Shown: positions 47,991 through 64,000 of the stretch, in pieces | Position numbering within the stretch: position 1 is the first letter of the stretch | How the letters are laid out: each line of letters starts with the position of its first letter | Assembly (NCBI RefSeq): GCF_040361275.1 | Contig: NZ_APNH01000003.1 | Location: forward strand, 186,001 to 250,000 | Direction of reading: 5' to 3' | Length of the DNA stretch: 64,000 bases | Source of the DNA: Salinisphaera sp. T31B1 | Lineage (GTDB): Bacteria; Pseudomonadota; Gammaproteobacteria; Nevskiales; Salinisphaeraceae | Notes under the pieces: model-generated | The model's database searches: none | What the model was told of the DNA's origin: nothing | What the model saw: the letters and a program-made list of their open reading frames with translations, nothing else | Translations under genes and position numbers: made by a program

Positions 47991-48944
47991 CTAGCGAAGC
48001 AGGCGCTGGCGATAGACGCGCCATAGCGCCAGCCAGCCGAATATCAGCGGATGCCGTCGTAGACGGTCGTCGACAGGGATGACGACACCGGTATGACGCT
48101 CGATCTTGTAGGCGGCATAGTCCACCGCGTCGGTGAAGGTGAAACAGGCCTTGGCCAGACGTAGGATCGACAGGCTTTTGCCGCAGGCCCGACGCAGACG
48201 CCAGCGCAGCCGCGCCCACGGTGAATCGGCTCCGCACCAATACAGGCGGCCGGCGGAATCCGTGGTCACCGGCCGTGCGAGCAGCGGCCGCGCGGCTTCC
48301 AGCCGGCGCGCATACTCGTGGCTGTCGCGTTCGACGAGCGACCGGCTGCGGCTTGTCTTTTCGACCCGCAATTCGCTGGCATAGCTCAGTGACAGGGCAG
48401 CGCTGAGCGTGGCCGCGGGGCCGCGACCATCCGCGAGTGCGGGCAGCGCACGATCGAGCAGGGTCACCACCGCCTGTCCGCAGGCCGCCCGGGTGCGTTG
48501 GCGATCGTCGTCGCTGGCCGCGGCCACGATAGCCACGGGCTGGGCAAAACGGCCCCAGACCGAGGACTGGAACCAGTCGCGACAGCCGGCCTCGAGCTGA
48601 TCGCGGCTAAGCACGGCATATTTGCACCGCAACAAACGTCCGTCAGCGCCCGTTCGTTCGGCGTAATAGACGTTGGGCGGTACCAGTCGATTGCACCAGC
48701 CGCCCAGACGGGACTGGCCGGGCGGGCCGTACTCGTCGACCACGACATAGAAATCGAGCAATCCCGCATACGGATCGCCGTCGCGCAGGCAGGCGCCGTA
48801 GTAGATCAAAGCCACAAAGCGCCGGCCGAACCGGGCGCGCAACGGCTCGATGATCGGTTCGAGTTGCGCGCTCTGGGACGTCGTACAGGGGCCGGCGATT
48901 GCAGCCAGCCGGATCCGATCGGACGCCCGGTCGACGCCGGTCAC
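47991..48944 (-). CDS. Tam41-like phosphatidate cytidylyltransferase family protein
   Basis: A 317-residue protein whose N-terminal two thirds resemble the Tam41/Mmp37 CDP-diacylglycerol synthases known from mitochondria and some bacteria. Matching blocks in order are LIYYGACL (near 47-54), the acidic LDFYVVVD (63-70), NVYYAER (91-97), RCKYAVLSRDQL (107-118), GRFAQPV (131-137) and LSLSYASELRV. The last 60 residues are basic with VDYAAYKIERHTGV. The start is GTG at 48944, overlapping the lipid kinase stop (GTGA), so the two are translationally coupled: a kinase would make a lipid phosphate and this enzyme would activate it with CTP. Whether the lipid is diacylglycerol or ceramide is unknown. 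Family call by eye. Confidence 0.62.
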   Translation of the reverse strand: MTGVDRASDRIRLAAIAGPCTTSQSAQLEPIIEPLRARFGRRFVALIYYGACLRDGDPYAGLLDFYVVVDEYGPPGQSRLGGWCNRLVPPNVYYAERTGADGRLLRCKYAVLSRDQLEAGCRDWFQSSVWGRFAQPVAIVAAASDDDRQRTRAACGQAVVTLLDRALPALADGRGPAATLSAALSLSYASELRVEKTSRSRSLVERDSHEYARRLEAARPLLARPVTTDSAGRLYWCGADSPWARLRWRLRRACGKSLSILRLAKACFTFTDAVDYAAYKIERHTGVVIPVDDRLRRHPLIFGWLALWRVYRQRLLR

Positions 48945-49936
48945 AGGTTGACGAACCGTGCCGTGCCGGCCGAACTGAGCACGACGGGCCCATCGGCCGA
49001 ACGTGCAGTGAAAAACTCGCCGTCGACGATATAGCCGCCGTCGAAGGAAAGCGCCAGGCGATCGCTGTTGTGGCTGCGATAGCCCTTGTCCGGCGTCATC
49101 CAACGGCGCCGTCGCCCGCGGCAGACGGCGGGTATGCGGCGCAGCAATCCCTCGGCGCCTTCGGCCACGCTGGTCCATGCGACCGGGCCGTTTTCTTCTC
49201 CCCAGAAGGGATGCATGCGCAGCACCAGGGTGTCCAGCGTGCTGGCCATCAGCAGAATACTGGGCTGATCGATCGTATGGCCGCGGTCATCGTTCAGCCG
49301 GACATCGACCGGTACGAAATACCGGCGATCGCCGGTCGCCACGGCCTTGACGAAGCGAGTGAATGCCACGCCGGGACCGACATCACCGCGCATGCCGTAT
49401 TGATGCAGCCGCTTCTGGGTGTGCTCGACCGCGTTGTAGATCGCACCCGCGCCGAAGAACATGCCGCACAGCGGCGGCGCGGATCCGCCCGGATCTATGC
49501 GCAGCACGTCGCGGGCGATCACGTGCCGGTCCATGTCACGCGGGCTAGACGCCCAGGCGTGCAGACGTTGCCAGCCGTCCCGCTTGACCGAAACCGTGCC
49601 GACATCGTTGCCGGTCATGTTTGTGCTGCCGGTGGGCACCAGCGCCAACAGAGGCGGTCGTTCGAAGATATCGCCGAGCATGATGTGGCCCAGCACCGAC
49701 TGGACCGTGCCATCGCCGCCGGCCACGGCGAGCAGATCGACGCCGGCATCGGCGAGTTGGCGTACCGCGGCTTCAATCTCGGCCGGGCTCTTGGCCCGTA
49801 TCGCCGGTACGCCCGCGCCCAGGTCCGGCTGGGCCCAGCGCTTGCGGTGGCGGCCGCTGTGCGCGTTGTAGATGATGCCCAGACGTCGAGGGCGCGCATC
49901 GTACGACGTTGTTTCCACGCCGGCCGGTTTCAGCAT
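48941..49936 (-). CDS. Diacylglycerol/ceramide-kinase-family lipid kinase
   Basis: A 331-residue DAGK-catalytic-domain protein. The N-terminal RRLGIIYNAHSGRHR is followed by the nucleotide loop AVAGGDGTVQSVLGHIM near 70-86 and VPTGSTNMTGNDVG. The C-terminal domain ends with GGYIVDGEFF, equivalent to the usual DGE motif. Family members phosphorylate diacylglycerol, sphingosine or ceramide; the Caulobacter ceramide kinase CpgB belongs here. The ceramide genes 5-10 kb away make ceramide a candidate substrate. I use ATG 49936 since homology begins just after it; an ATG at 50014 would add 26 residues without character. Confidence 0.75.
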   Translation of the reverse strand: MLKPAGVETTSYDARPRRLGIIYNAHSGRHRKRWAQPDLGAGVPAIRAKSPAEIEAAVRQLADAGVDLLAVAGGDGTVQSVLGHIMLGDIFERPPLLALVPTGSTNMTGNDVGTVSVKRDGWQRLHAWASSPRDMDRHVIARDVLRIDPGGSAPPLCGMFFGAGAIYNAVEHTQKRLHQYGMRGDVGPGVAFTRFVKAVATGDRRYFVPVDVRLNDDRGHTIDQPSILLMASTLDTLVLRMHPFWGEENGPVAWTSVAEGAEGLLRRIPAVCRGRRRRWMTPDKGYRSHNSDRLALSFDGGYIVDGEFFTARSADGPVVLSSAGTARFVNL

Positions 49937-50104
49937 GTTGCGCGCGGTCCGGGGCGGGCAGATGGCCGCGCCGGTGCATGTCCGCGTGGTCGGGCGGTGG
50001 TCCTGAACGGGCATCGGCGCCGGGTGGAATGGGCGGTCATGGCCGGTGGCTCGCGGCAACAAACGTGGCGCGAATGGTACCGCAGCTGATCCGCGCGGTC
50101 GGGT

Positions 50105-51169
50105 TCATACGCATCGTCGCAGCCACAACAACGCGGCCAGCGACAGGGCAAGCCCCGGTGCGAGCATGCAAAGCGGTGCTGACAGGCCGTACAGGAAAGC
50201 CAGGTTGCCGATCATCTGAATCAGCCCGTAGCCGCTCAGACCGATGGCCGCGGCAATGGCGATGCGCAGGCCGACATTGGCTCCGCGGGGGTTGACGAAT
50301 ACCAGCGGCAGACCGAGCAACAGCATGGCCAGCGTGGTGACCGGCAGCGCCAATTTCTGCCATAGCGCGATCCGGAACGGTTGAGCGTCCTGGTCGTGTG
50401 CTTCGAGATAGTCGATATATCGATACAGCGCGCGCGGCGACAAGCTGTCCGGTCGTCGGTCGAGCACCGCGAGCTGGCGTTCGTAGAGCGTCGGCCGCCA
50501 GAGCAGCTGGTCGCGATGTTCGCTGATCTCGCCGCTGCCATCGAAACGCTTGACGGTGACGTCTTGCAGCCGCCAGTCGCCGTCTGCCTGAATATCGGCG
50601 CGTTCGGCCTGCAGCGAGCGCTCGATGCTGGCATCGGGGCCGAATCGCAGAATCTCGATATCCAGCGGTACCCGGGCGTTCTCGAGCGCACCGATATGCA
50701 CCACGCCGTCCTGGGATCGCATCCAGAACGTGGCATCGTCGGCGATGCTGCCGCCCGAGATTCGTGTGGCACGCAGCTGCTGGGCCTGCTGTGACAGCGG
50801 CGGAGCAACCAGCGATTGCACGACGAGGGCGGCTGCGAGCACGATCAGCCCGAAGCCGGCCACGCGGCGGGCGATATGCAGCGGCGACAGACCGGCCGCG
50901 CGCAGCACGACCAGCTCGGAGCGGCCGGTCATCAGCCCGAGCGCGCCGACCACCGTCAACAGCAGGGTGAACGGCGTGAGTTCGACCGCTCGCTGAGCGA
51001 GCTGTCCAAGCGTGACCTTGATCGCATCCAGAGTGGCGTAATTGCCCTGGCCGACGTCGTCCAGCTCGGCCGACAGGTCAAAGAATCCGAACAGGCCGAG
51101 CAGCAGCAGCGTTACCACGCCATAGGCGCGCAACAGCTCAAGGCCCAGATATCGGTTGATTACACGCAT
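50105..51169 (-). CDS. lptG: LPS export permease LptG
   Basis: A 354-residue YjgP/YjgQ permease with three N-terminal and three C-terminal membrane helices around a periplasmic beta-jellyroll. MRVINRYLGLELLRAYG, LTPFTLLLTVVGALGLMTGRSELVVLRAAGLS and the C-terminal LLGLPLVFVNPRGANVGLRI are typical. It pairs with LptF and is driven by LptB (12876-13646). ATG at 51169 shares one base with the lptF stop (TGATG). Confidence 0.92.
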   Translation of the reverse strand: MRVINRYLGLELLRAYGVVTLLLLGLFGFFDLSAELDDVGQGNYATLDAIKVTLGQLAQRAVELTPFTLLLTVVGALGLMTGRSELVVLRAAGLSPLHIARRVAGFGLIVLAAALVVQSLVAPPLSQQAQQLRATRISGGSIADDATFWMRSQDGVVHIGALENARVPLDIEILRFGPDASIERSLQAERADIQADGDWRLQDVTVKRFDGSGEISEHRDQLLWRPTLYERQLAVLDRRPDSLSPRALYRYIDYLEAHDQDAQPFRIALWQKLALPVTTLAMLLLGLPLVFVNPRGANVGLRIAIAAAIGLSGYGLIQMIGNLAFLYGLSAPLCMLAPGLALSLAALLWLRRCV

Positions 51170-52218
51170 CAGTAGCTTGTCCGATGCCGCCAGAGCAGTA
51201 TCAGCGCGCCCACGCCGACCAGGGCGTCTACCCAGTAGATGCCCGGCAATACCGGCATTCGCCCCTGTTCGACCCAGCTGCGAGCGATACTGGCCATGCC
51301 ATAGTAAACCGCGAAGCTCACCGCGGCGGCGACGATGTTCAGCGCCCGAGCGCTGCGCGGCGAGGAGCGGGCCAGTGTGATGGCGAGCACGGCCAGGAAC
51401 AGGGCCGCGAACGGCCGCGAGATACGCCACTGGCGCTCGGCGATATCCTCCGGCGCGGTCGCGCTCAGTAGACTTTCGCTGGATGCTGCCTTGCGCTTGT
51501 AGCCGACCACGCGGTTCGACGGCTGGAGATGCCATTCCATGTGGCCGAAACCGACCATGCGATCGTTACGGCCCGCGGAATCGAGCTGATATAGATGTCC
51601 CTGTTCGAACTCCAGCGTCGGTGCGCCGTCCGCGTCGAGATTCCGCCTCAGGTGGGCCGCGCGTACAATTACCGGTCGACCGCCGTCGATGAACCGGGCG
51701 AACACATCGTCCAGACGCTGGCCGTCATCGGATTTGCCGCCGGCATAGATCACCGCGTCGTCGCTGCTGTAGAACCGTCGCGGTGTGACCGCGCTCAAAT
51801 CCAGCCGGGTTTCGGCCTGAACCTCGAGCGAATACAGCGCGGCGTACGCCCATGGCCGGCCGAACAGCGACAACGCGCCGACCAAGACCGCGACGAGCAC
51901 GGCAAAACCCACGATCGGCCGTAGCATGGCCCGACGCGACAGGCCGCCGGCCTGCCATGCGATCATCTCGTTGTCGGCATAAAGCCGGCCCAGCCCGATC
52001 ATGATGCCCAGGAACAGCGCCAGGGGTAGCAGCACCTCGAGCGCAATCAGTACGCGTAGGCCGATCAGCGTGCCGACCAGGCGCATGGCCTGTTCGCCCT
52101 GTGCCGCTTCATCCAGGTAACGGGTCACGCTGTAGCTGGCGAATATCGCCAGCAGGACCAGCAGTACGGTCAGGGTTGGGCCCGCGACCGCACGCAACAG
52201 GCTGCGATCGGCAATCAT
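51169..52218 (-). CDS. lptF: LPS export permease LptF
   Basis: A 349-residue partner of LptG with the same architecture: SVTRYLDEAAQGEQAMRLV, LEVLLPLALFLGIMIGLGRLYADNEMIAWQAGG, then a periplasmic domain and three helices (residues about 260-345). ATG at 52218 starts the homologous region. In many gammaproteobacteria lptFG lies opposite pepA; here it is embedded between a nucleotidyltransferase gene and a lipid kinase gene, all on the same strand. Confidence 0.9.
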   Translation of the reverse strand: MIADRSLLRAVAGPTLTVLLVLLAIFASYSVTRYLDEAAQGEQAMRLVGTLIGLRVLIALEVLLPLALFLGIMIGLGRLYADNEMIAWQAGGLSRRAMLRPIVGFAVLVAVLVGALSLFGRPWAYAALYSLEVQAETRLDLSAVTPRRFYSSDDAVIYAGGKSDDGQRLDDVFARFIDGGRPVIVRAAHLRRNLDADGAPTLEFEQGHLYQLDSAGRNDRMVGFGHMEWHLQPSNRVVGYKRKAASSESLLSATAPEDIAERQWRISRPFAALFLAVLAITLARSSPRSARALNIVAAAVSFAVYYGMASIARSWVEQGRMPVLPGIYWVDALVGVGALILLWRHRTSY

Positions 52219-52389: not shown

Positions 52390-53208
52390 TCAGGCGATGT
52401 CCCGGGCCGTCGGTTCGTCGGACTCGCGCTCGCGCAGAATGGCTTCGACCAGGGCCAGATCGGCCGGGGTATCCACGTCGACTGCCGCTTGTGGATACGA
52501 CAGGATGACCGGCCGAATGTTCAATCCGGTGCGGCGCGACAGGCGCGCGAACGCCTGTTCGAGCGTCAGACGACGCAGCAGATACGCCGCGATCGCCCGC
52601 CAGCCGAGCATGCCGGCGATCACGCGGGCCGGATGCTTGCGCTCGCGTTCGACGCGCTGCCAGTCCTCGATCACTGCGCGTGCGGCGGCGGTATGGACCG
52701 CAAAGAGATTGCAGCCGCAGTAACCCGGCCCGGGAGCCAGGCGGATGGCGGTGCGACGGCTGTCTGGAAAGGCGGCACGCACGCCGGCATAGCTGGCCAG
52801 GCCCACCGCGAGATCGCAGGCAGGCCCGGCCAGCAGTTCGTCGATCATGGCAGGTGTGAGCAGCGCGTGATCGGCCGTGGTGAGCAGCGCCGGGCGGTCG
52901 CCGAGTGCCGCAAGTCCGCGCGCGGCGCTGGCGGCCGGCGAGGCCGAGGGCGCGATCCATCGTACATCGTCGCCGGCCAGCAACGCCGCCAGCGCCGGCT
53001 GATCGGCGATGGTCGCCTGATCCGGGCCGACCACGATGATCGTCTCGATGGCCGGGGCGGCTCGCAGGGTGGTGAGCACGCGCGAAAGCAGCGGCTTGCC
53101 GGCCACCGGGCTCAGCGCCTTGCAGGCAGCCCCCGTCGTGCGGGCGATCGGATCGTCCGCGCCGCGATCGCCGGCCAGCACCACGGCGGCATGTGTGCCT
53201 CGACTCAT
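52390..53208 (-). CDS. MobA-like NTP transferase (candidate head-group cytidylyltransferase)
   Basis: A 272-residue nucleotidyltransferase of the MobA-like GT-A fold. The N-terminal nucleotide-binding segment is AAVVLAGDRG with CKALSPVAGKPLLSRVL; the metal Asp lies in LLTTADHALLTP, and VDVDTPADLALVEAIL is the usual C-terminal motif. Its start overlaps the stop of the ceramide-synthase-like gene by four bases, so the two are co-translated. In Caulobacter the nucleotidyltransferase CpgD makes CDP-glycerate for an anionic sphingolipid head group; this protein is a candidate for a similar role. Substrate is not readable from the sequence. Confidence 0.68.
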   Translation of the reverse strand: MSRGTHAAVVLAGDRGADDPIARTTGAACKALSPVAGKPLLSRVLTTLRAAPAIETIIVVGPDQATIADQPALAALLAGDDVRWIAPSASPAASAARGLAALGDRPALLTTADHALLTPAMIDELLAGPACDLAVGLASYAGVRAAFPDSRRTAIRLAPGPGYCGCNLFAVHTAAARAVIEDWQRVERERKHPARVIAGMLGWRAIAAYLLRRLTLEQAFARLSRRTGLNIRPVILSYPQAAVDVDTPADLALVEAILRERESDEPTARDIA

Positions 53209-54353
53209 ATCGGCTTGTCGTAGATACGGTAGGTCTTGTAGACCCGGCCGCCGATGGATTCGATGATGTTCTTCATGCCTTTGTTGGTTTCCAGAATCCA
53301 GGACAGCTCACAGCCGCTGGCGCCGCAGGCCAGCAGTTCGGTCTGCAGCGCGCCGATCACCGAATAGGCCAGCGCTGCGCCGAGCGGTCCGCTCTGGTAC
53401 TGCTGGCGCACCCCCATGAGCGGCACCCGTGAGGTCTCGGGAAAACGCACCTTGAGTCGCCATAACAGCTTGGCCAGCCCCACCGGCGACAGCCGGCCGC
53501 GCAGATCGCGCGCCGCTTCGTTGATATTCGGCAGGCCCACGATGAACGCTGCCGGCTCGCCGTCGACCTCGGCGATCTGTACGAGTTCGTCGGGCAACAG
53601 CACCTTCAGTGTCTTGCCCATATCGCGAAACTCTTCACGGGTCAACGGCACGAAACCCCAGTTGTTGGCCCAGGCGTCGTTGAACAGATCGCGAATCGTA
53701 TCGAGCTCTTCCATGAAGCGCTTGCCGTCGATCGGCCGGACCCGCACCCGCGGCGCGTAGCGCTCCAGCAGACGCGACATGACCGGCGGGTGGGCGAAAT
53801 CCAGCGAAATCCAGTACGCATGCAGATCGATCGCCTTGCCATAGCCAAGTTCGGTCAGCCGCTCGGCGTAATAGGGGCGCGCATGGCCCATCATCACCAT
53901 GGGGGGCGTATCGAAGCCGTCGACGAGCAGTCCGCATTCCTCGTTAATGGTCAGATTGAACGGGCCATGCACCTGAGTGACCCCGCGCTCGCCCAGCCAG
54001 GCTTCGGCCGCGTCGAGCAGCGCCGCGAAGACCGCCGCATCGTCTTCGGCGTCGAGCATCCCGAAATAGCCCACATCGTCGCCGTGAATGGGCTTTCGCA
54101 GCGTATCGATCTGTGCGCTGATCCGCCCCACGCAGTCTGTGCCCCGCCAGGCAAGCCATGACGCGAATTCCAGATGTTCGAAGGCCGGATTCTGTTTGGG
54201 TGACAGATGCATGCGACGTTCGATACGTAACGGTGCCCGCCAGGCCGGATCGGTGCCAAGAATGCGCTCCGGTACGGCGAGGAAGTGTTGCCGATCCCGC
54301 TTCGAGGTAACGGCGGTGGTACGAATTACGGTATCGTGGGCAGCTTGAGGCAT
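53205..54353 (-). CDS. bcerS: Bacterial ceramide synthase-like N-acyltransferase
   Basis: A 382-residue protein of the GNAT-like family to which the Caulobacter ceramide synthase and E. coli YghO belong. Characteristic blocks are VHGPFNLTINEECGLLVDGFDTPPMVMMGHARPYY (near 127-161), DAWANNWGFVPLT and a C-terminal region with SGCELSWILETNKGMKNIIESIGGRVYKTYRIYDK. No signal peptide or membrane span is evident. The ceramide synthase of this family acylates 3-oxo-sphinganine. The family is broader than ceramide synthesis, so the specific name depends on the divergent neighbour genes, which encode the other four ceramide enzymes. Confidence 0.68.
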   Translation of the reverse strand: MPQAAHDTVIRTTAVTSKRDRQHFLAVPERILGTDPAWRAPLRIERRMHLSPKQNPAFEHLEFASWLAWRGTDCVGRISAQIDTLRKPIHGDDVGYFGMLDAEDDAAVFAALLDAAEAWLGERGVTQVHGPFNLTINEECGLLVDGFDTPPMVMMGHARPYYAERLTELGYGKAIDLHAYWISLDFAHPPVMSRLLERYAPRVRVRPIDGKRFMEELDTIRDLFNDAWANNWGFVPLTREEFRDMGKTLKVLLPDELVQIAEVDGEPAAFIVGLPNINEAARDLRGRLSPVGLAKLLWRLKVRFPETSRVPLMGVRQQYQSGPLGAALAYSVIGALQTELLACGASGCELSWILETNKGMKNIIESIGGRVYKTYRIYDKPI

Positions 54354-54833: not shown

Positions 54834-56609
54834 ATGATGCCAACCCCAACCCAGCATCGGTTGCCGATGCGACACGCCGACTTTTCCACGCTCGCCGAGG
54901 CGCTGGATTATGCGGCGCAAGGGGATACCGGCTTCAATTTCTACAGTGGTCGGGGCGAGCTGTCGGCCAGCCTCGGGTATGCCGAATTGCGCGAGCGTGC
55001 CTTGGAAACCGCGGCTCGACTGATCGGGCTCGGGGCGCGCCCGGGCGATCGGGTGGCATTGGTGGCCGATACCGTGCCCGGCTTCATGAACTGCTTTTTC
55101 GCCTGCCAATATGTCGGCCTGGTGCCTGTGCCGTTGCCGGTCACGGTGGGGCTGGGCAGCCGTGATGCCTATATCCGCCAGCTGCGTGGCCTGCTCGAAG
55201 GCTGTGATGCTTCGGTGGCGCTGGCGCCCGAAGATTTCATGAGCTTCCTGGACGCCGCGACCCGGGACCTGTCTCTGCGTCATGTCGGCAGCTTCGAGGC
55301 ACTGGGCTCGGTCGACCCGGCCGACGATCTGCCCGAGCGCCCCGGCCGCGATGCCACCGCCTATCTCCAGTACACCTCCGGCAGCACCCAGTTTCCGCGC
55401 GGGGTGGTGATCAGCCAGGCCCAGGTCATGCAGAACCTGACCAGCATCCTGCGCCTGGGCGTGCAGATGCGCGACGACGACCGCCTCGTGTCCTGGCTGC
55501 CGCTTTATCACGACATGGGGCTGGTCGGCTTCATGCTGGCTGCACTGACCTCGCAACGTTCGGTCGATTACCTGGCCACGCGCGATTTCGCCATGCGTCC
55601 GCGCCAGTGGCTGAGCCTGATCAGCCGCAACCGCGGCACGATCGCCTTCAGCCCGTCCTTCGGTTACGAACTGTGTGCCCGCCGGATTCGTCACGGCGCC
55701 GCGGATTTCGATCTGTCGAGCTGGCGTATCGCCGGTGCCGGGGCGGAAACGATCCGCCCCGATTCGCTCAACCGTTTTGCCGAGACTCTGGCCCCGGCCG
55801 GTTTCGACCCCAAGGCATTTCTGGCCTGTTATGGCATGGCGGAGTGCTCGCTGGCGATCAGCTTCGCGCCGCTGGACACCGGCCTGCAGATCGACCGCGT
55901 CGATGCCGAGCAGCTGGCGACTCGCCAGGTTGCCGCTCCGATCGAGACCGACGACGATCGCCGCGAGAACACATTCGTCGATTGCGGCGAGGTGTTGCCG
56001 GAATACGAATTCGAAGTTCTCGACGAGCAGGGGCAGCCGCTTGGTGACCGCCGGGTCGGATCCATCCGGGTTCGTGGGCCGAGCGTGATGTCCGGCTACT
56101 TCGCAGACGAGCACAAGACCCGTGAGACGCTGTCCGAGGACGGCTGGCTCGACACCGGAGATCTGGGCTACCGGATCGGACGACGGATCGTGATCACGGG
56201 CCGGGCCAAGGATCTGATCATCGTCAACGGCCGCAACATCTGGCCGCAGGATCTGGAGTGGCTGGCCGAGCAGCAGCCGGAGCTGCGTCCCGGCGATGCG
56301 CTGGCGTTCGCCGCGCCCTCAGCCGTCGGCGCGGACGCGGCGGTGGTGGTGGTCCAGTGCCGTGCACGCGAAGCCGAGGCCCGGGCGGCGTTGATCAAAC
56401 GCCTGGAAGGGTTGATTCGCCGCGAGTTCGGCGTCGAATGCCTGGTCGAGGCGGTGGCGCCGCATACGCTGCCACGCACGTCCTCGGGCAAGCTCTCGCG
56501 GGCCGGCGCGCGTCGTGACTATATCGAGCGCCTGGCCGAACGCGTCCATCAGCGTGCGCGCCCGGGTCATGAATCCGACGCGCACGGACAGGGTCGCCAG
56601 GCCGGCTGA
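54834..56609 (+). CDS. Fatty acyl-AMP ligase / acyl-ACP synthetase (AasR-like)
   Basis: A 591-residue ANL-superfamily enzyme. The phosphate loop is YTSGSTQFPRGVVISQ near 182-197, then ACYGMAE near 338, WLDTGDLGY near 438-446, GRAKDLIIVNGRNIWPQDLE, and the C-terminal catalytic Lys in PRTSSGKLSRAG near 550. The long N domain and FAAL-like spacing suggest loading of fatty acids onto an acyl carrier protein rather than CoA; an ACP gene follows two genes downstream. AGGAAA precedes the ATG; tandem ATGs at 54834 and 54837. It heads the plus-strand ceramide-type operon and overlaps the next gene by 41 bases with the start chosen. Confidence 0.8.
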   Translation: MMPTPTQHRLPMRHADFSTLAEALDYAAQGDTGFNFYSGRGELSASLGYAELRERALETAARLIGLGARPGDRVALVADTVPGFMNCFFACQYVGLVPVPLPVTVGLGSRDAYIRQLRGLLEGCDASVALAPEDFMSFLDAATRDLSLRHVGSFEALGSVDPADDLPERPGRDATAYLQYTSGSTQFPRGVVISQAQVMQNLTSILRLGVQMRDDDRLVSWLPLYHDMGLVGFMLAALTSQRSVDYLATRDFAMRPRQWLSLISRNRGTIAFSPSFGYELCARRIRHGAADFDLSSWRIAGAGAETIRPDSLNRFAETLAPAGFDPKAFLACYGMAECSLAISFAPLDTGLQIDRVDAEQLATRQVAAPIETDDDRRENTFVDCGEVLPEYEFEVLDEQGQPLGDRRVGSIRVRGPSVMSGYFADEHKTRETLSEDGWLDTGDLGYRIGRRIVITGRAKDLIIVNGRNIWPQDLEWLAEQQPELRPGDALAFAAPSAVGADAAVVVVQCRAREAEARAALIKRLEGLIRREFGVECLVEAVAPHTLPRTSSGKLSRAGARRDYIERLAERVHQRARPGHESDAHGQGRQAG

Positions 56610-57540
56610 TCCGGTGATTCCCCGTGTGTCGGTGACCGGCGCGTCGGGCTTTATCGGCAGCGCGCTTTGCCTGGGCCTTCGGCAACAGGGTTGGCGGGTC
56701 CGTGGCTTGACGCGCAGTGATGCCGCCGCCGAGCGCCTGAGCGGTCTGGGTGTCGAGGTCGTTCGGGGCGGGCTGGCCGACGGTGTGGCCCTCGCCGACT
56801 GGGTCGCTGGAGCCGACGCGGTCGTCCACTGCGCCGGTGCGGTGCGCGGGGCGGACTACGACGATTTCGCCCGTACGAACGTGAACGGGACCCGGCGCCT
56901 GCTCGAGGCCATGGCCGGCCTTCACCTGCCGCTGGTGGCCTTGTCGTCGCTGGCAGCACGGGAGCCGGCGTTGTCGGACTATGCGCGCAGCAAATATGAC
57001 ATGGAACGTCTGCTGGAGGCCTCGGGCGTGCCTAACGGCTGCCTGATGCTGCGGCCGCCCGCCGTCTACGGCCCGGGAGATCGCGAACTCAGGCCGTTGT
57101 TCGATGCCTTCGCACGCGGCATCGCGCCGTTGCCGGGCGCGCCCGAGGCACGTGTGTCGTTGCTTCATGTCGACGATCTCGTCGCGGCCATCGTGGCCTG
57201 GCTGGACGCTTCCGACCGGCCCGATGGGGTCTACGAGATCGGCGACCAGCAGGCCGGCGGATACAGTTGGGAAGAGGTCGTGGCCACCGCGGAAACGCTT
57301 TTACAACGACGAATCCGTAGAATACGATTGCCGCGGACCGCGCTGGCCGGCGCTGCGCGTGCCAACAGGCGTCTGGCACGCTGGTTCGGCTATGCGCCCA
57401 TGCTCACGCCGGGCAAGCTGGCTGAACTGCGCCACGACGACTGGGTCTGCGACAACACGCCGCTCCAGGACAGGCTGGACTGGCAACCGCAGGTCACGCT
57501 GGCCGAGGGGTTGGCCCGGACCTGCGGCTGGGGCGCCTGA
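56569..57540 (+). CDS. cerR: NAD-dependent epimerase/reductase, CerR-like
   Basis: A 323-residue extended SDR. The cofactor motif VTGASGFIGSAL starts near residue 21, catalytic Ser is in ALSSLAARE and the YxxxK pair in DYARSKYDME. It ends with a substrate domain containing RPPAVYGPGDRE and DDLVAAIVAWL. In Caulobacter the CerR enzyme of this family reduces 3-oxo-ceramide, and its gene lies between the acyl-ACP synthetase and ACP genes, exactly as here. The start at ATG 56569 lies inside the upstream gene; a GTG at 56614, four bases after that gene's stop, is equally possible and sits closer to the Rossmann fold. Confidence 0.72.
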   Translation: MNPTRTDRVARPADPVIPRVSVTGASGFIGSALCLGLRQQGWRVRGLTRSDAAAERLSGLGVEVVRGGLADGVALADWVAGADAVVHCAGAVRGADYDDFARTNVNGTRRLLEAMAGLHLPLVALSSLAAREPALSDYARSKYDMERLLEASGVPNGCLMLRPPAVYGPGDRELRPLFDAFARGIAPLPGAPEARVSLLHVDDLVAAIVAWLDASDRPDGVYEIGDQQAGGYSWEEVVATAETLLQRRIRRIRLPRTALAGAARANRRLARWFGYAPMLTPGKLAELRHDDWVCDNTPLQDRLDWQPQVTLAEGLARTCGWGA

Positions 57541-57569: not shown

Positions 57570-57812
57570 ATGGCAAGCTACGAAACCGTCTATCGCGAGT
57601 TGCACGCCCTGCTGCAGAGCTATACGGCCGATCGCCACGAGATCAGTCCCAGCAGCCTGCTGGTCGACGATCTGGGCCTGGATTCGATGCAGACCATGGA
57701 AATGGTCATGGACATGGAAGATCGGCTGGATATGGCCATCCCCCTGAACGTGTTGCCCGAGGTGCAGACCGTGGATGACCTGACCCGTGCGCTGGTTCAG
57801 GTCGCCGCATGA
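57570..57812 (+). CDS. Acyl carrier protein of the ceramide-type operon
   Basis: An 80-residue ACP. The phosphopantetheine Ser is in LGLDSMQTMEMVM (near 39), within the usual four-helix fold; acidic residues cluster around helix II. It differs from the housekeeping AcpP, whose site is normally DSLD. GAGG lies upstream of the ATG, and the stop overlaps the serine palmitoyltransferase start (ATGA), so these two are co-translated. It likely carries the acyl group delivered to serine. Confidence 0.88.
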   Translation: MASYETVYRELHALLQSYTADRHEISPSSLLVDDLGLDSMQTMEMVMDMEDRLDMAIPLNVLPEVQTVDDLTRALVQVAA

Positions 57813-59008
57813 GCGTATTCGATAAATTCGCTCCGATCGCCGAGGTGCGTTCGCGGATCGCGGCCACCGGCGTGGACCCGCTGGGCGTACCGATCGACGA
57901 GATTCAGTCGGCCACCCGGGCGATCGTGCGCGGCCGACCGATCATCCTCGCCGGAAGCAACAACTACCTGGGCCTGACCTTCGACGACGACTGCATAGCC
58001 GCAGGGGTCCAGGCATTGCGCGATCAGGGCACCGGTACCACCGGCTCGCGCATGGCCAACGGCTCATATGCCGGGCACCTGGCGCTCGAAGCCGAGTTGG
58101 CCGCATTTTACGGCGTCGAACACGCCATCGTGTTCTCGACCGGCTACCAGGCCAATCTCGGCATGCTCTCGGCGCTGGCCGGGCCGCGCGATGTGGTCAT
58201 GCTCGATGGTGACTGCCATGCCAGCATCTACGACGGGGTCAAACTCGGCGGTGCTCAGGCGCTGCGTTTTCGCCACAACGATCCGGCCGATCTGGACAAG
58301 CGGCTTGGCCGTCTCGGCGACCGGGCAGCCGACACGCTGGTGGTGGTCGAGGGTATCTACAGCATGCTCGGCGATCGCGCGCCGTTGGCCGAGTTGTGCG
58401 ACGTCGCACATCGCCATGGCGCACTCATCTATGTCGACGAAGCCCATTCGCTAGGGATCTGCGGCGCCACCGGTAGCGGCGTGGCCGAAGCCGAAGGCGT
58501 GCTCGACCGGGTGGATTTCATCGTCGGTACCTTCAGCAAGAGCCTGGGCGCGGCCGGCGGCTACTGCGTGAGCCGGCACGCCGAGCTGGACATGGTTCGC
58601 TATGCAAGCCGGCCGTATATATTCACGGCGTCGCCGGTGCCGTCGGTGATCGCCTCGACCCGCGCGGCGCTTGCACGCCTGCGCACTTCCCCCGGTCTGC
58701 GAGCCCAGCTCTGGCGCAACGCCGAACGTCTGCACGAAGCGTTGTCCGCGGCCGGTTTCAGACTCGGCGCGCCGCCCGGCCCGGTGGTGGCCACCATGTT
58801 CGACAGTCCCGAACAGGCGTTGACCTTCTGGCAGGGCCTGCTGGACCGCGGTGTCTATGTGAATCTGATGTTGCCGCCGGCCACACCCAATGGCTGGTGT
58901 CTGGTGCGAGCCAGTCTGAGCGCAGCACATAGCGATACGCAGATCGATCACATCATCGAGGCCTTCATCGGGCTGGCCACGCGGGAAGACGATGTCGCCG
59001 CGGGTTGA
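57809..59008 (+). CDS. spt: Serine palmitoyltransferase-like alpha-oxoamine synthase
   Basis: A 399-residue PLP enzyme of the alpha-oxoamine synthase family. Motifs: NNYLGLT, GTTGSRMANGSYAGHLALE, VMLDGDCHASIYDG, VDEAHSLGICG and the PLP-lysine region VGTFSKSLGAAGGY near 235-248. The GTFSKS form and the surroundings resemble bacterial SPT more than KBL, BioF or HemA. SPT condenses serine with an acyl thioester to 3-oxo-sphinganine. It is coupled to an ACP gene instead of being beside bio or thr genes, which supports sphingolipid synthesis. Confidence 0.8.
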   Translation: MSVFDKFAPIAEVRSRIAATGVDPLGVPIDEIQSATRAIVRGRPIILAGSNNYLGLTFDDDCIAAGVQALRDQGTGTTGSRMANGSYAGHLALEAELAAFYGVEHAIVFSTGYQANLGMLSALAGPRDVVMLDGDCHASIYDGVKLGGAQALRFRHNDPADLDKRLGRLGDRAADTLVVVEGIYSMLGDRAPLAELCDVAHRHGALIYVDEAHSLGICGATGSGVAEAEGVLDRVDFIVGTFSKSLGAAGGYCVSRHAELDMVRYASRPYIFTASPVPSVIASTRAALARLRTSPGLRAQLWRNAERLHEALSAAGFRLGAPPGPVVATMFDSPEQALTFWQGLLDRGVYVNLMLPPATPNGWCLVRASLSAAHSDTQIDHIIEAFIGLATREDDVAAG

Positions 59009-59041: not shown

Positions 59042-59812
59042 ATGGGCATAACCCTGGTTACGGGCGCGTCGTCTGGGATCGGCCGCAGTCTGGCGCGGCG
59101 GCTGGCCGCCCACGGCGATCTGGTGGTGCTTGTCGCGCGCCGCGCGGAGCTGCTCGATACGCTGGTCATGGAGATCCGGCGCCACGGTGGGCAGGCGCTG
59201 GCCGCCCCGGGTGACGTCACCGATCGCCGCGCGGTCGCCGATATCGTTATGCAGGTCGAGGCCGAGCACGGCCCGATCACCCGGTTGGTGGCCAACGCGG
59301 GCGGCGGGTCTCGCTGCGACGGCAGTCAGTTCGACGCCGAGCATTTCCAGACGACGGTGGCGCTGAACCTGGTTGGCGTAGCCAACGCGGTGGCCGCAGT
59401 CCTGCCGGGCATGGTGGCGCGACGCGGAGGGCATCTCGTGGCCATGGGCAGTCTGGCCGGGGTGCGCGGGCTGCCGGGCGCGGCTGCCTATTCGGCAGCC
59501 AAGGGCGGGGTGGCCAATCTCATGGACAGCCTGAGGATCGATCTGCGCGATCATGACATCGACGTGACCCTGCTCCTGCCCGGCTTTGTCCGGACCCAAC
59601 CGCCCAAGGCCGGCCGCCGACGTTTCAGGCCGTTCCGGATGGAGCTCGAGCAGGCAACCGCTCGCATGGAAAACGCGATCATCGCACGCAAACGCCGGCT
59701 CGCCTTTCCGTGGCCGCTGGTCGTCGCGATCGGCATGACGCGGCTGCTACCATTCGGTGTGGATGGTTGGCTGCTGGGCCGGTTCCGCGCCCGCAAGGCG
59801 CCCGCGACGTGA
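59042..59812 (+). CDS. Short-chain dehydrogenase, possible 3-ketosphinganine reductase
   Basis: A 256-residue classical SDR. The cofactor motif VTGASSGIG is at residues 6-14, the NAG motif is LVANAGG, catalytic Ser is in AMGSLAG and YSAAK holds Tyr and Lys. The C-terminal 55 residues are basic and include a hydrophobic segment (PLVVAIGMTRLLPFGVDGWLL) that could touch the membrane. That layout recalls eukaryotic 3-ketodihydrosphingosine reductase, but many SDRs look alike. It lies 33 bases after spt on the same strand. If it reduces 3-oxo-sphinganine, this locus would have two keto-reductases. Confidence 0.7.
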   Translation: MGITLVTGASSGIGRSLARRLAAHGDLVVLVARRAELLDTLVMEIRRHGGQALAAPGDVTDRRAVADIVMQVEAEHGPITRLVANAGGGSRCDGSQFDAEHFQTTVALNLVGVANAVAAVLPGMVARRGGHLVAMGSLAGVRGLPGAAAYSAAKGGVANLMDSLRIDLRDHDIDVTLLLPGFVRTQPPKAGRRRFRPFRMELEQATARMENAIIARKRRLAFPWPLVVAIGMTRLLPFGVDGWLLGRFRARKAPAT

Positions 59813-59862: not shown

Positions 59863-60624
59863 ATGGCAACCCAGGCAGATACCACGGCCAACAAGCGCCG
59901 CAAGATGGTCAAGCGTTTCGGCAAGAAGCTGTTTCGCGGCACCCTGATGGACTTTCTGTCCAAGCAGTCGCGCGTGCCGGATGAGCCGGTGCTGGCCAAC
60001 AGCCATTTTCCCTGGGCCGAACAACTGCGTGCCCAGTGGCCGGTGATCCGCGACGAATTGGAGGCTCTGCTGGAACGCCGTAACGCGCTGCCGAGTTTCC
60101 AGGACATCAGCCCCGATCAGAAACGCATTTCCACCGACGATCAGTGGAAAACGTTCATGCTCTACGCCTTCGGCACGCGTATGGACTTCGGCTGCGAGAT
60201 GTGTCCGCAAACCGCGGCCGCGCTCGAACAGGTGCCGTCGCTGTCGAACGCGTTCTTCTCCATTCTCGGCCCGGGCAAGCATATTCCTCGACACCGGGGT
60301 GTTACCAAGGGCCTGGTCCGGTGCCATATCGGTTTGCGCGTGCCCAGCGGGCCCGGCCGCTGCCTGATCCAGGTCGACGACGTCGACTGTGTATGGGAGG
60401 AGGGCGGCATGTTCTTCTTCGACGACACCTATCCGCACGAGGTGTGGAACGAGACCGACGGCGAGCGTGCGGTGCTGTTGTTCGATATCGAACGCCCGAT
60501 GGGCATGCCCGGCCGTATGGTGTCGCGCGCGATGATCGCGGCGTTGCGACGCACCGCGTATTTCCGCGATGCACTGGCCAACCAGCGGGCCTGGGAAGCC
60601 CGCTATCGCCAGGCGATGGGCTAA
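59863..60624 (+). CDS. Aspartyl/asparaginyl beta-hydroxylase family protein, LpxO-like
   Basis: A 253-residue Fe(II)/2-oxoglutarate dioxygenase-type protein. The iron-binding pattern is visible in ILGPGKHIPRHRGVTKGLVRCHIGL (first His region) and FFDDTYPHEVWNETDGERAVLLFDIERP (second His and the Arg that binds 2-oxoglutarate). The N-terminal 45 residues are basic and may contact membrane. Bacterial relatives such as LpxO hydroxylate acyl chains of lipid A; beside ceramide genes it could hydroxylate the ceramide acyl chain or base. That target is inference. Confidence 0.78.
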   Translation: MATQADTTANKRRKMVKRFGKKLFRGTLMDFLSKQSRVPDEPVLANSHFPWAEQLRAQWPVIRDELEALLERRNALPSFQDISPDQKRISTDDQWKTFMLYAFGTRMDFGCEMCPQTAAALEQVPSLSNAFFSILGPGKHIPRHRGVTKGLVRCHIGLRVPSGPGRCLIQVDDVDCVWEEGGMFFFDDTYPHEVWNETDGERAVLLFDIERPMGMPGRMVSRAMIAALRRTAYFRDALANQRAWEARYRQAMG

Positions 60625-60683
60625 GCGCGTAGCGACCATCGCGAACGCGCGTATTGCGTTCGATCAGGCCGCCCGTCCGATTC

Positions 60684-61622
60684 ATGCCGCGATTCTATTT
60701 CTCGTCCAACCGCAGCCACGAGGTGCCGAGCTGGCAGCGCCAGCCCATCTGGCTGGCCGAAGGTGCGGCCGTCGGAACGCTGCTGGGCGTCTTCCGCTGG
60801 CTGCCGATGGGCAGCGCCATGCGCCTGGGCGCGCGTCTGGGTGGGCTGCTGGCCCGTTTTTCGCCGCGCCTCGACAAGGTGCGCAGTAATTTGCGGGTGG
60901 TGTTTCCGCGTGCGACATCCGATGAACTCGAGCGGATCACGCACGCGTCGTTCCGCAACGTAGGCGTGGCGATGGCCGAGCTGGCCAATCTCGACCGTAT
61001 TTGGCGCCAGCGCCGCCGGCGTATCGAATTCTGTGAATTGCCCGGCGCGGTCACGCCGTCTTCGGCCCGCCGAACTGTTTTCGTGACGGCCCATCTGGGC
61101 GCCTGGCAGCTCACCCCGCTGCTCGGTCGCGAGTACGGGTTCACCGTGCCGGTGATCTATGCGCCGGAACAGAATCCGTATGTGGATCGCCAGCTCATGC
61201 GCCTGCGTCGGGCCTTCGGCAGCCCGCTGGTCTCGCGCGATGGCGGTATCCGGGCGCTGATGCGCTCTCTCGACCGCGGCGACTCCATCGGGCTGACCGT
61301 GGACACGCGTCTGGACAGTGGTGAACCGGTGATGTTCTTCGGCGAGCAGGCGATGACCAATACCGCCCCGGCGCGTCTGGCGCTGCGCTATGACTGCGAC
61401 CTGGTGCCGGTGATCGCCGAGCGTGTGGCCGATGCACGGTTTAGAATCAATATTCATCCGCCGATCCGGGCCCGGGCCGATGCGGTCAATCGTAACGACA
61501 AGGCCCTGGACATGAGCGCCCAGATCAACGCGCTGTTCGAGCAATGGATCGCCCGGCATCCGGATCAGTGGCTGTGTCTCAAGCGCCGCTGGCCCAAGGC
61601 CGTGCATCGCCGGCATGCCTAG
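60684..61622 (+). CDS. LpxL/HtrB-family acyltransferase with altered catalytic motif
   Basis: A 312-residue membrane-associated acyltransferase. A hydrophobic N-terminal segment (about 20-42) precedes the lysophospholipid-acyltransferase domain: KVRSNLRVVFP, FVTAHLGAWQLTPLL (near 128-142), LMRSLDRGDSIGLTVDTRLDSGEPVMFFG and WLCLKRRW. Members usually have HX4(D/E); here the His is followed by Gln at the acidic position (HLGAWQ). It may be inactive, use another base, or transfer a different group. ATG at 60684 is preferred over an in-frame TTG 30 bases upstream. It follows the hydroxylase gene by 59 bases. Confidence 0.8.
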   Translation: MPRFYFSSNRSHEVPSWQRQPIWLAEGAAVGTLLGVFRWLPMGSAMRLGARLGGLLARFSPRLDKVRSNLRVVFPRATSDELERITHASFRNVGVAMAELANLDRIWRQRRRRIEFCELPGAVTPSSARRTVFVTAHLGAWQLTPLLGREYGFTVPVIYAPEQNPYVDRQLMRLRRAFGSPLVSRDGGIRALMRSLDRGDSIGLTVDTRLDSGEPVMFFGEQAMTNTAPARLALRYDCDLVPVIAERVADARFRINIHPPIRARADAVNRNDKALDMSAQINALFEQWIARHPDQWLCLKRRWPKAVHRRHA

Positions 61623-61688
61623 ACGGGCCCGAGGGGTGTCGAGCGTTTCCCGCCGTGTGTCCGCGGCGCGTCCGAGGAGAACCAGAAC

Positions 61689-64000
61689 GTGGCCATTCGT
61701 TCCCGACGTGTCCTGACGACGTTCGTCCAGGGTGATCTGCGCCATGCATGCGCCGATCAGACCGGCACCTACTGTATTCGTCTGACCCCGCGCGAGGGTG
61801 TCGTGCCCAGCGCCAAACCGCCGGTCCGCATCTTCATGGGGACCGAGGCGGTACAGTTTCGTGCCGAGCGAGCCTTTGTCTGGTCGATCGAGCGGGTACG
61901 CGATCCGGCGCGTACCTACGAGATCCATCTCATGCGTGACCTGGCCGGTTTCGAGCGCCGACTCTGGCTGACCGGCTTCACGAACTATCGTTTCGTGATT
62001 CCCGAGCTCGCCGGCGGCCGGGGACGGGCGATCTACAACGACGCCGACCAGATTTATCTGAGCGATCCGGCCCGGCTGTTCGATCTGGAGATGGGCGAGG
62101 CCGGCGTGCTGTCGATCAACGATCGCGACACCTCGGTGATGCTGATCGACTGCGAGAAGATGCGGCCGCTGTGGAATGGCGCCGCGGCCCGGCGTACGGG
62201 TAACCGCGAACTGGAAAAGCGCATGCGCGAGGCCGGTCTGTGGGCCGATCTGGACGACGCCTGGAACGCGCGCGACGCAGAATATGTACCGGACGTGTCG
62301 CATGTCGTGCATTACACGACGATCCATAGCCAGCCCTGGCGGCCGACGCCGCAGGATTATGTCTACCGTGCAAACCCGGCCGAAGCGGTCTGGACACGGA
62401 TCGACCGGGAGGCCGACGAGGCGGGCTTTCAGCTGTTCGGCCCCGAGCAACCGAGCCCGGCCTTCCGACAGCGGGCAGGCGGTATTCACGCCGAGCCGGA
62501 GGCCGCCGCACGTCGGGCCGAAATCCAGCGTCTGGCTCGCGATGCCGCGCCCGAGTCGTTGTTGTATTGCGGCGGCGACGAGGCCGGAACACGGGCCTCG
62601 GTCGAGGCGATCGTGCCGCGGGCAGCGCGCCGGATTGCGAGTATCGATTTCACCGCCTTGACCGATCCTGTCTCGAGCGAGACGGTCGATATGGTGGCCG
62701 TCGACGGGCTGGCCCAGCTGCCGGATCTGGATATCGCCTGGGTGCTTGATGCACTGTTTGCCCGGGCGCGTCGCGCGATTTCGGTCCATGTGAGCCTCGA
62801 CAGCAGCCGCCACCGCAGCACGCCTGCCGATCAGATCTGGTGGTATCAGCAGATGGCCGCGGCCGGCGCACGCTATCCCGATCGGCACTGGCGCCTCGCG
62901 GTTCGCTGGCCGCGACGTCTGGGCAAGACCCGCGTGTGGCGGTGGTCGGGCGGGGCGCTGCTGAGCAGGCGTCCGCGGGTCTGGGCCCTGCTGCATTACA
63001 AGACCGGCCATCGCAGCCAGGCCCTGGGCGTGGCAGACGCGCTCGGCTGGCCGTTCGAGACCCGAGACCTGGTACGTGAACCGTTGCGCTACGCCAGCGC
63101 ACTGGCGCGCGAGCGACTCGGTCTCGGCGGGCCGAGTCTGCCGGGCGGTCTGCGTCCGCCCTGGCCCGAGGTGGTGATTGCCTCCGGCTGGCTGCCTGCG
63201 GTCATGGCGCGCACCATCAATGCGCGCAATCGCGGTGCCAGCCGGCTGATTTTGCTCGGTCGGCGTGGGGGCCGGGTCGGTGAGAGCCAGGACATCGGCC
63301 TGGTCTGCCGACATTTCGATCTGCCGCCCAATCCGCGCGAGTTGATCACCACCTTGCCTCCGAACAAGGTCGACGACACACGGCTGGCTGCGGCTCGGGC
63401 GCGCTGGCCCAACCTGTATGCGCCCGGCGTGTCGCCACGTATAGCCTGGTTGGTCGGCGGCAATAGCGCTCAGCACGAACTCACGCCGGCCATGGCACGG
63501 CGTCTCGCGGAACAGATTCGCGCCGCCACAACGGCCGAATCGGGGCAGCTGGCAGTGCTGACCAGTCGCCGTACCGGCGCTGATGGCGTGGAGGCCATCC
63601 GCGAAGCGGTCGGCCGCGACACGATCTTCGAGCCCTGGAATGCCCATGCCGGCGATGCCAATCCCTATCTTGGCTATCTCGCCAACGCCGATGTCCTGAT
63701 CGTGACCGGTGAGAGCGAATCGATGCTGGCCGAAGCGGTGGCGACCGGCAAACCGGTGTATATCGTCGCCCTGCCCGAAAGGGCGCCCGGCGTTCGCCGG
63801 CGTCTGGCCGATTGGGTGGTCGGCCAGGCCAATACGGATCGTTTCAACGCGCGCGGTTCGCGCCGGCCTCAGGAAGGGCTGCAATATCTGTGCGCGCGTC
63901 TGGTCGAGCGTCGGGTGTTCGTGCCCCGACGCAACATGCCCCAGCTACACCAGGCGTTGGTGAACCAGGGTGTGGCCCGGTTGTTCGATGGCCATCTGAG
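61689..64000 (+). CDS. Multidomain protein: GT-A-like N-domain plus ELM1-like C-domain (partial)
   Basis: At least 770 residues, running off the window. Residues about 1-260 look like a GT-A/GT8-type glycosyltransferase: IRIFMGTEAVQF-like core, the acidic YNDADQIYLSDP near 115-126 (DxD-like) and VVHYTTIHSQPWRP. A Rossmann-like segment follows near 290-420 (YCGGDEAGTRASV). From about 430 the sequence matches the mitochondrial-fission ELM1 family (VWALLHYKTGHRSQALGVADALGW; VVIASGWLPAVMARTI; WLVGGNSAQHELT; ADVLIVTGESESMLAEAVATGKPVY). The GTG start has GAGGAGA upstream. It may glycosylate a lipid made by the preceding genes. Function not established. Confidence 0.65.
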   Translation, partial: MAIRSRRVLTTFVQGDLRHACADQTGTYCIRLTPREGVVPSAKPPVRIFMGTEAVQFRAERAFVWSIERVRDPARTYEIHLMRDLAGFERRLWLTGFTNYRFVIPELAGGRGRAIYNDADQIYLSDPARLFDLEMGEAGVLSINDRDTSVMLIDCEKMRPLWNGAAARRTGNRELEKRMREAGLWADLDDAWNARDAEYVPDVSHVVHYTTIHSQPWRPTPQDYVYRANPAEAVWTRIDREADEAGFQLFGPEQPSPAFRQRAGGIHAEPEAAARRAEIQRLARDAAPESLLYCGGDEAGTRASVEAIVPRAARRIASIDFTALTDPVSSETVDMVAVDGLAQLPDLDIAWVLDALFARARRAISVHVSLDSSRHRSTPADQIWWYQQMAAAGARYPDRHWRLAVRWPRRLGKTRVWRWSGGALLSRRPRVWALLHYKTGHRSQALGVADALGWPFETRDLVREPLRYASALARERLGLGGPSLPGGLRPPWPEVVIASGWLPAVMARTINARNRGASRLILLGRRGGRVGESQDIGLVCRHFDLPPNPRELITTLPPNKVDDTRLAAARARWPNLYAPGVSPRIAWLVGGNSAQHELTPAMARRLAEQIRAATTAESGQLAVLTSRRTGADGVEAIREAVGRDTIFEPWNAHAGDANPYLGYLANADVLIVTGESESMLAEAVATGKPVYIVALPERAPGVRRRLADWVVGQANTDRFNARGSRRPQEGLQYLCARLVERRVFVPRRNMPQLHQALVNQGVARLFDGHL

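Follow-up and report, generated by a model that had tools for sequence, protein, structure and literature searches.

A putative sphingolipid synthesis, modification and transport island beside lpxC in Salinisphaera sp. T31B1

The stretch of DNA analysed here (the window, 64,000 nucleotides) corresponds to positions 186001-250000 of contig C3 in the 4.36-Mb genome of Salinisphaera sp. T31B1, and its last part holds a run of genes which, judging from their content, is a genuine island for making, modifying and transporting a sphingolipid. The island spans positions 47,991-70,434 (22.4 kb, about 19 genes) and is bordered by lpxC on one side and by a DUF721 gene and secA on the other. A preliminary description of the window had delimited it as 47991-64000; however, the window end at 64,000 cuts the island, whose real end lies outside, and we took the remainder from the same contig (L093). 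The G+C content of the island, 0.662, is similar to that of its flanks (0.656 and 0.654).

AasR, CerR, AcpR and Spt form a plus-strand run in which the last two overlap by 4 bases; diverging from it, a minus-strand arm carries CerS, a MobA/CofC-type nucleotidyltransferase, LptF2, LptG2, a DAGK-type kinase and a TAM41-like protein (Table 1). Downstream of Spt we found an SDR oxidoreductase, an OlsC/LpxO-like hydroxylase, an LpxL-like acyltransferase and a GT8-ELM1 fusion, followed past position 64,000 by a single ELM1 gene, an Fe/2OG-type oxygenase, a sulfotransferase-like gene, a GT4 glycosyltransferase on the opposite strand and an MsbA-like ABC exporter, with which the island closes at 70,434. 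The DUF721 gene, named by eye, begins at 70,445 and secA is next. The plus-strand run of acyl-AMP ligase, CerR-like, acyl carrier protein and SPT-like genes and the divergent gene of the ceramide-synthase family lie exactly where the preliminary description had placed them; the other genes that it named exist as well, but its inventory lacked LptF2 and LptG2. The island of this salt-loving bacterium very probably serves to make, modify and export a sphingolipid, a lipid class formerly considered rare among bacteria.

Table 1. Island genes that begin within the window, from left to right
Gene product	Position	Strand	Evidence
CpgC-type protein, predicted TAM41 fold, CTP-type nucleotidyltransferase	47991-48914	-	profile, PF09139, model; start uncertain
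CpgB-like putative ceramide kinase (DAGK_cat)	48941-50062	-	PF00781 1.3e-12; GGDG motif; adjoins CpgC
LptG2, second LptG of the genome	50105-51169	-	PF03739; NCBIfam LptG 284.2 bits, cut-off 240
LptF2, second LptF of the genome	51169-52329	-	PF03739; NCBIfam LptF 319.1 bits, cut-off 230
CC_1153-like MobA/CofC-type nucleotidyltransferase	52390-53208	-	PF12804 1.8e-14; CofC model 2.3e-6, far under its cut-off
CerS, putative bacterial ceramide synthase ortholog	53205-54353	-	homology and place
AasR, acyl-AMP ligase / acyl-AcpR synthetase	54834-56609	+	NF006624 (fatty acyl-AMP ligase, NCBIfam), 798.9 bits, cut-off 600
CerR, NAD-dependent epimerase-family reductase	56515-57540	+	PF01370 9.8e-28; YxxxK; start uncertain, reading frame overlaps AasR
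AcpR, dedicated acyl carrier protein	57570-57812	+	PF00550 1.1e-9; DSM motif
Spt, serine palmitoyltransferase	57809-59008	+	equivalog NF047599 608.8 bits, cut-off 500; PDB ranking; tree
SDR oxidoreductase	59042-59812	+	PF00106 1.6e-49; 10/10 island genomes
Asp/Asn beta-hydroxylase family, OlsC/LpxO-like acyl 2-hydroxylase	59863-60624	+	PF05118 2.7e-50; 10/10 island genomes
LpxL-like acyltransferase	60654-61622	+	PF03279 6.1e-45; 10/10 island genomes
GT8-like domain and ELM1 fusion	61689-64133 (past window end 64000)	+	PF01501 0.0036, N-terminal; PF06258 8.5e-48, C-terminal; 10/10 island genomes

The ceramide core

Besides exceeding the cut-off of its equivalog model, the window Spt remains below those of the BioF model (308.5 vs 426 bits) and of the glycine C-acetyltransferase model (313.8 vs 460). 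When its PDB matches were ranked, serine palmitoyltransferase 2x8u came first with 432 bits, ahead of KBL (233), BioF/KBL (184) and cysteate acyltransferase (166). The preliminary description had named a placement of the SPT-like protein inside the BioF or KBL clades as a result that would speak against its reading. In a tree of 33 rows, drawn with 12 of the 80 Spt loci that we surveyed (74 of them outside Salinisphaera), the 18 Spt rows were instead separated from 15 paralogs by a branch with 91/97 support, just under the star threshold of the tool, which was recovered in 92% of bootstrap trees. Eight of the 15 paralogs were scanned: three are BioF over cut-off, one is BioF-like below it, three are glycine C-acetyltransferases and one is an autoinducer synthase. 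The T31B1 genome has a separate BioF elsewhere (440.6 bits, cut-off 426). It also encodes, at C1:1106796-1107821 (L206), an alpha-hydroxyketone quorum-sensing autoinducer synthase (NF005526, 534.1 bits, cut-off 428).

The best named match of the window Spt is that of Salinisphaera shabanensis, with 85% identity, and in many of the 80 loci the neighbourhood of Spt contains homologs of the island core genes, frequently in the same order, which goes beyond a chance arrangement. We used P. luteola (L053) and A. vinelandii (L091) as yardsticks in place of Caulobacter sequences. CerR shows 41 and 47% identity to its counterparts in these two species, respectively, and CerS, for which Pfam, NCBIfam and PDB searches gave no match, shows 54 and 56% identity to the gene found at the same place; both were assigned by homology and place only. 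The locus contains the parts of the Rhodobacteria-type ceramide pathway, namely Spt, AcpR and AasR adjoining spt, and, by homology and place, CerR and CerS. Given the equivalog score, the PDB ranking and the tree, the ceramide synthesis core announced by the preliminary description stands, and ceramide is probably produced.

Ceramide genes have been described in alpha-, beta- and gammaproteobacteria, with one contiguous cluster in A. vinelandii and in P. luteola (PMC11324152). Ceramide clusters in gammaproteobacteria are therefore already published, and it is the decoration set that differs here. The literature that we searched, supplements lying outside its scope, held no account of this island among the matches listed.

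The putative decoration genes and their distribution

An Spt of at least 67% identity occurs in 10 of 61 genomes of the order, all of them Salinisphaeraceae and T31B1 included. All 10 share 15 genes, which are CpgC, CpgB, the CC_1153-like gene, CerS, AasR, CerR, AcpR, Spt and seven decoration genes (SDR, hydroxylase, LpxL-like, GT8-ELM1, ELM1, Fe/2OG-type oxygenase and sulfotransferase-like), while GT4 is variable (7/10, one at 44% identity). The island is located after lpxC, except that in G445 lpxC sits on another contig. In the five Spt-less Salinisphaera, lpxC is in every case followed directly by DUF721-secA, without any of the 15 genes in the stretch read (only 2.5 kb in G449; the LpxC of G431 and G441 are identical). 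G429, which belongs to another genus and has no Spt, likewise has none of the 15 genes in the stretch after lpxC, where DUF721 and secA follow.

The exporter precedes DUF721-secA in all six block-bearing genomes that were read up to secA. In two genomes of a related genus (G443:C2 and G433:C1) the island also follows lpxC, but its right flank differs, since neither exporter nor secA was present in the stretch read (about 16.8 kb and 2.4 kb, respectively, past the sulfotransferase-like gene). For G439 and G447 the sequence read, or the contig itself, stops short of the exporter region, and in G451, a further genome outside these ten (81% complete), the contig terminates inside the island. Either loss or transfer may have produced this patchy distribution: the best LpxC tree has three changes of island state and the best SecA tree two, but well-supported branches force only one in each.

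Synthesis and decoration genes seem to be present or absent as a unit, and this common fate at the site is our main argument for placing the decoration genes in the ceramide pathway. The proposal of the preliminary description that the neighbouring genes decorate ceramide gains support from this joint presence and absence, and such a decoration is the likely reading of the block.

A DxD motif is invariant in the six GT8-like sequences compared. The predicted model of ELM1 (pLDDT 94.4) returned UDP-GlcNAc 2-epimerases, PimB', MGD1, WaaG and MurG as best Foldseek rows, all of which we take to be of the GT-B fold; with TM-scores of about 0.3-0.5, these matches would inform the fold and not the reaction. 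In the oxygenase, H125-x-D127 and H197, presumably the iron triad, are kept in 7/7 sequences. The sulfotransferase-like protein has a weak family match, below the Pfam cut-off, and two motifs invariant in 8/8 homologs, GAGRSGTS and R-x-P-x2-VARS, which resemble the 5'-PSB and 3'-PB motifs of PAPS sulfotransferases.

Among the 74 loci outside Salinisphaera, relatives were found near Spt for the hydroxylase (7), the LpxL-like protein (2) and the ELM1-type proteins (6). In Halomonas ventosae (L049, 17780-21166), a sulfotransferase-like gene with 41% identity and a GT8-ELM1-type protein adjoin a CPG2-type sphingolipid cluster.

These observations bear on the possibility that the hydroxylase, LpxL-like, glycosyltransferase and sulfotransferase-like genes modify lipopolysaccharide (LPS) or lipid A and that the ceramide genes alone act on a sphingolipid. 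Indeed, PF03279 and PF05118 include lipid A enzymes, lpxC adjoins the island, and LptF2/LptG2 pass the cut-offs of LPS-export models. However, all seven decoration genes are at the site exactly when Spt is, lpxC remains where the island is absent, and relatives of some of them recur near Spt in other bacteria, including the Halomonas pair, so that we regard a lipid A function as unlikely.

Proposed head-group activation and transport

In Caulobacter, the published set comprises the five ceramide genes, CpgB (CC_1160), CpgC (CC_1161), CpgA (CC_1159), CC_1158, CC_1153, CC_1152 and a second LptC/LptF/LptG (PMC11324152). CpgB has been characterised (PMC10331486), CpgD (CCNA_01210) is a phosphoglycerate cytidylyltransferase (PMC12275187), and CpgA, which belongs to the CDP-alcohol transferases, is required together with CpgD in Caulobacter for the second phosphoglycerate of ceramide-phosphoglycerate. 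CC_ numbers were linked to CpgD and CC_1153 through the domains named in the papers. By family and gene order, CpgB and CpgC of the Caulobacter CPG2 pathway appear to be represented in the island. The CC_1153-like protein matches 3-phospho-D-glycerate guanylyltransferase 7p97 weakly (1.2e-5, 24.1 bits over the principal aligned segment), which is a lead only.

The TAM41-like gene was first taken for a replacement of CpgC because CC_1161 is termed CDP-diacylglycerol (CDP-DAG)-synthase-like in PMC11324152 and the CdsA of T31B1 has no relative in the Spt loci. We rejected this idea, as the order Spt-CpgC-CpgB-CpgA found elsewhere in the phylum suggests that the gene is CpgC itself. Of 398 genomes searched across the phylum, 27 match the CpgC profile, and a CpgB-like kinase adjoins CpgC in 27 of the 28 loci of these genomes, T31B1 included (two kinase probes of that survey, fragments of 104 and 36 residues, were given no weight). 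Spt lies in the 1.5-kb flank of 13 of the loci, and a CpgA-like gene follows the kinase in six.

A profile of 15 CpgC-family members (A1; 15 of 18 locus or window matches, broken or very short ones being dropped and one locus repeating the window) matches mitochondrial Tam41 6ig2 at 6.3e-7. At E<=1, PF09139 recognises eleven of these 15 proteins, the best at 6.6e-8, while the window protein itself reaches 0.0017 and 18.2 bits, under the 24-bit gathering cut-off. A PF09139 search of the T31B1 genome gave no match even for its controls and was not used as evidence of absence. When the predicted model of CpgC (pLDDT 88.2) was compared with known structures, the top five Foldseek rows were all Tam41 chains (TM-scores 0.44-0.56), and alignment with bacterial Tam41 carrying CTP-Mg (7ecd) gave Z 19.3 with an rmsd of 3.0 over 225 residues, the next family reaching Z 7.8. 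The likeness to the TAM41 CDP-DAG synthases (7ecd, 6ig2) covers residues 11-260 and leaves the last 47 outside; identity is 14-15%, and the substrate expected for CpgC is ceramide-1-phosphate rather than phosphatidate.

The mechanism of CpgC was called unidentified in 2025-2026 (PMC12275187, PMC13228409), and PMC11324152 had raised the idea of an NDP-activated ceramide. A predicted TAM41 fold, that of a CTP:phosphatidate cytidylyltransferase, points to CDP-ceramide, and we infer that CpgC may convert ceramide-1-phosphate and CTP into this product.

Using P. luteola probes, we did not find an ortholog of CpgA or CpgD in the T31B1 genome: the best matches were 1.7e-8 over 109 residues for CpgA, to a hopanoid-cluster gene, and 1.6e-23 with 30% identity for CpgD, in an aminoethylphosphonate cluster, and both, on contig C1, were set aside on account of that location. 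The presumed CpgD of P. luteola matches PDB 1jyk and 4jd0. Neither gene was found at the island locus in any of the 10 Spt-bearing genomes. As CpgA and CpgD were not found, the second phosphoglycerate of Caulobacter CPG2 would not be expected here. Across the whole genome we counted a single PF01148 (CdsA-type) gene and five CDP-alcohol transferases, and the island holds none of these transferases.

The region holding the matches that were set aside is a hopanoid cluster on contig C1 (C1:1044001-1064000, L137, 48-19395; squalene-hopene cyclase, HpnN-, HpnA- and HpnH-type genes, named by eye). It embeds a PEP mutase-cytidylyltransferase fusion, a phosphonopyruvate decarboxylase, an aminoethylphosphonate transaminase and a CDP-alcohol transferase, only the last being family-matched, and is a candidate for making an aminoethylphosphonate lipid or a phosphono-hopanoid.

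The island resembles the Caulobacter crescentus region CC_1168-CC_1152 (PMC11324152) in its AasR-CerR-AcpR-Spt run, in having CerS in another operon, and in its CpgB-, CpgC- and CC_1153-like genes and LptF2/LptG2. It differs in that no CpgA or CpgD ortholog was found and in adding the seven decoration genes and an MsbA-type exporter. A. vinelandii and P. luteola likewise have one region in which CerS, the CC_1153-like gene, LptF2 and LptG2 diverge from AasR-CerR-AcpR-Spt, with an MsbA-like exporter after Spt, but their clusters include CpgA- and CpgD-type genes and none of the seven decoration genes in the roughly 21 kb read.

One could therefore see in the island an ordinary CPG2 cluster of the Caulobacter or Azotobacter type with unrelated neighbours, since the CpgB-, CpgC- and CC_1153-like genes and LptF2/G2 are common to the clusters of PMC11324152. 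This seems quite improbable to us, given that CpgA and CpgD orthologs were found neither in the T31B1 genome with the P. luteola probes nor at the locus in the 10 genomes, and that the site carries the extra genes when it carries the core and lacks them when it does not. The suggestion of the preliminary description that extra genes make this a distinct variant accordingly needs a partial correction: the SDR, hydroxylase, acyltransferase, two ELM1-type, oxygenase and sulfotransferase-like genes do differ from Caulobacter, but the kinase and nucleotidyltransferases are not new extras, as they fit CpgB, CpgC and CC_1153, and LptF2/G2 likewise have their counterparts in Caulobacter.

As regards transport, the island-type LptF2 and LptG2 each form a clade of their own, separate from the remaining copies (support 92/100 and 98/100), in a tree of 20 of the loci with matches (26 with LptF2, 20 with LptG2). 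In a genome search that took 12 of the 80 Spt loci, we counted four PF03739 (LptF/G) genes in T31B1 and in S. shabanensis, and two in five other block-bearing Salinisphaera. In these five (L014-L018; the pair is present in L013), the gap separates the CC_1153-like gene from CpgB, with the remaining island kept, and Nitrococcus (L073) has LptF2/G2 at that very position; the gap is most simply explained by a loss.

A homolog of the exporter lies within 600 bp 3' of Spt, on the same strand, in 32 of 74 loci with room for it, whereas in Salinisphaera it stands at the distal end of the island and not directly after Spt. In a tree made from 16 of 36 loci and five of eight ABC-transporter matches, the 16 post-Spt rows and the T31B1 exporter were separated from the five T31B1 ABC paralogs by a branch with 97/97 support.

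Proposed pathway and its implications

We propose, with a probability of roughly 0.8, that the island encodes one pathway comprising ceramide synthesis, CpgB/CpgC activation for a phospho head group, hydroxylation, O-acylation, glycosylation, probable sulfation and export. By orthology with Caulobacter, AasR would load AcpR, Spt would condense acyl-AcpR with serine, and CerS and CerR would yield dihydroceramide, the order of both steps being debated in Caulobacter. CpgB would then phosphorylate ceramide, an activity shown for the Caulobacter enzyme, and CpgC, to judge from its predicted fold, may convert ceramide-1-phosphate to CDP-ceramide at the expense of CTP. Hydroxylation of a chain could fall to the OlsC/LpxO-like and Fe/2OG-type enzymes, and acylation of a hydroxyl to the LpxL-like enzyme; sugar could be attached by the GT8-like domain together with the GT-B-fold ELM1 proteins, and sulfate by the sulfotransferase-like enzyme. 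The island's own MsbA-like exporter would flip the product, which, in two species only, its own LptF2/G2 would carry towards the outer membrane. Sulfate-bearing 1-deoxyceramides have been observed in the Black Sea, no sulfation gene being named in the accessible part of that study (PMC11334938).

Several points weigh against this proposal. The pathway is deduced from gene content, homology, gene order, site behaviour and predicted folds, and the Caulobacter names were given by family and place, the CpgA and CpgD probes coming from P. luteola genes assigned in the same way. The absence of decoration genes from Spt-less genomes covers the lpxC site only, the rest of those genomes not having been searched. 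Many of the decoration proteins fall below the cut-offs of their models: the hydroxylase (OlsC 223.7 vs 450 bits; LpxO 122.1 vs 500), the LpxL-like acyltransferase (best NCBIfam model 161.1 vs 273), the GT8 part (PF01501, 17.3 vs 24.3), the Fe/2OG-type oxygenase (Pfam, 26.9 vs 27) and the sulfotransferase-like protein (Pfam, 23.0 vs 27), whose profile also finds no credible PDB relative. No CDP-alcohol transferase gene was seen in the island as a user of CDP-ceramide. The exporter scores under the MsbA cut-off, while LptF2/G2 score over the ordinary NCBIfam LptF and LptG cut-offs and were not found genome-wide in 5 of 7 block-bearing Salinisphaera tested, some of them metagenome-assembled genomes, so that this export step is not universal. 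Long-branch warnings were raised for the Spt tree (among the paralogs) and for the exporter tree.

That Spt is another alpha-oxoamine synthase (BioF, glycine C-acetyltransferase or cysteate acyltransferase) and no ceramide is made has in its favour the shared superfamily, but the scores on the Spt, BioF and glycine C-acetyltransferase models, the PDB ranking, the Spt tree and the separate BioF make it extremely improbable.

The one-pathway proposal can be set beside the Raetz lipid A pathway and Lpt export, with which the island has LpxL-, LpxO-, MsbA- and LptF/G-type parts in common. The Salinisphaera paralogs, however, lie in a ceramide block and remain under the LpxL, LpxO and MsbA cut-offs, yet LptF2/G2 are over those of LptF and LptG. 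Tentatively, the product might be a ceramide-based counterpart of lipid A, CDP-activated and bearing sugar, an additional acyl chain, hydroxyl groups and sulfate, made and exported with a second LpxL-, LpxO-, MsbA- and, in some species, LptF/G-type set. If so, such a counterpart would be kept or dropped as one block beside lpxC while the LPS genes stay.

The CpgC step becomes testable, as the predicted TAM41 fold predicts CDP-ceramide. The block-bearing species without LptF2/G2, such as S. hydrothermalis and S. japonica, raise the question of the route taken by the sphingolipid to the outer membrane. Finally, close Salinisphaera species with and without the island at the same site provide a natural comparison series for the diversification of sphingolipid head groups.

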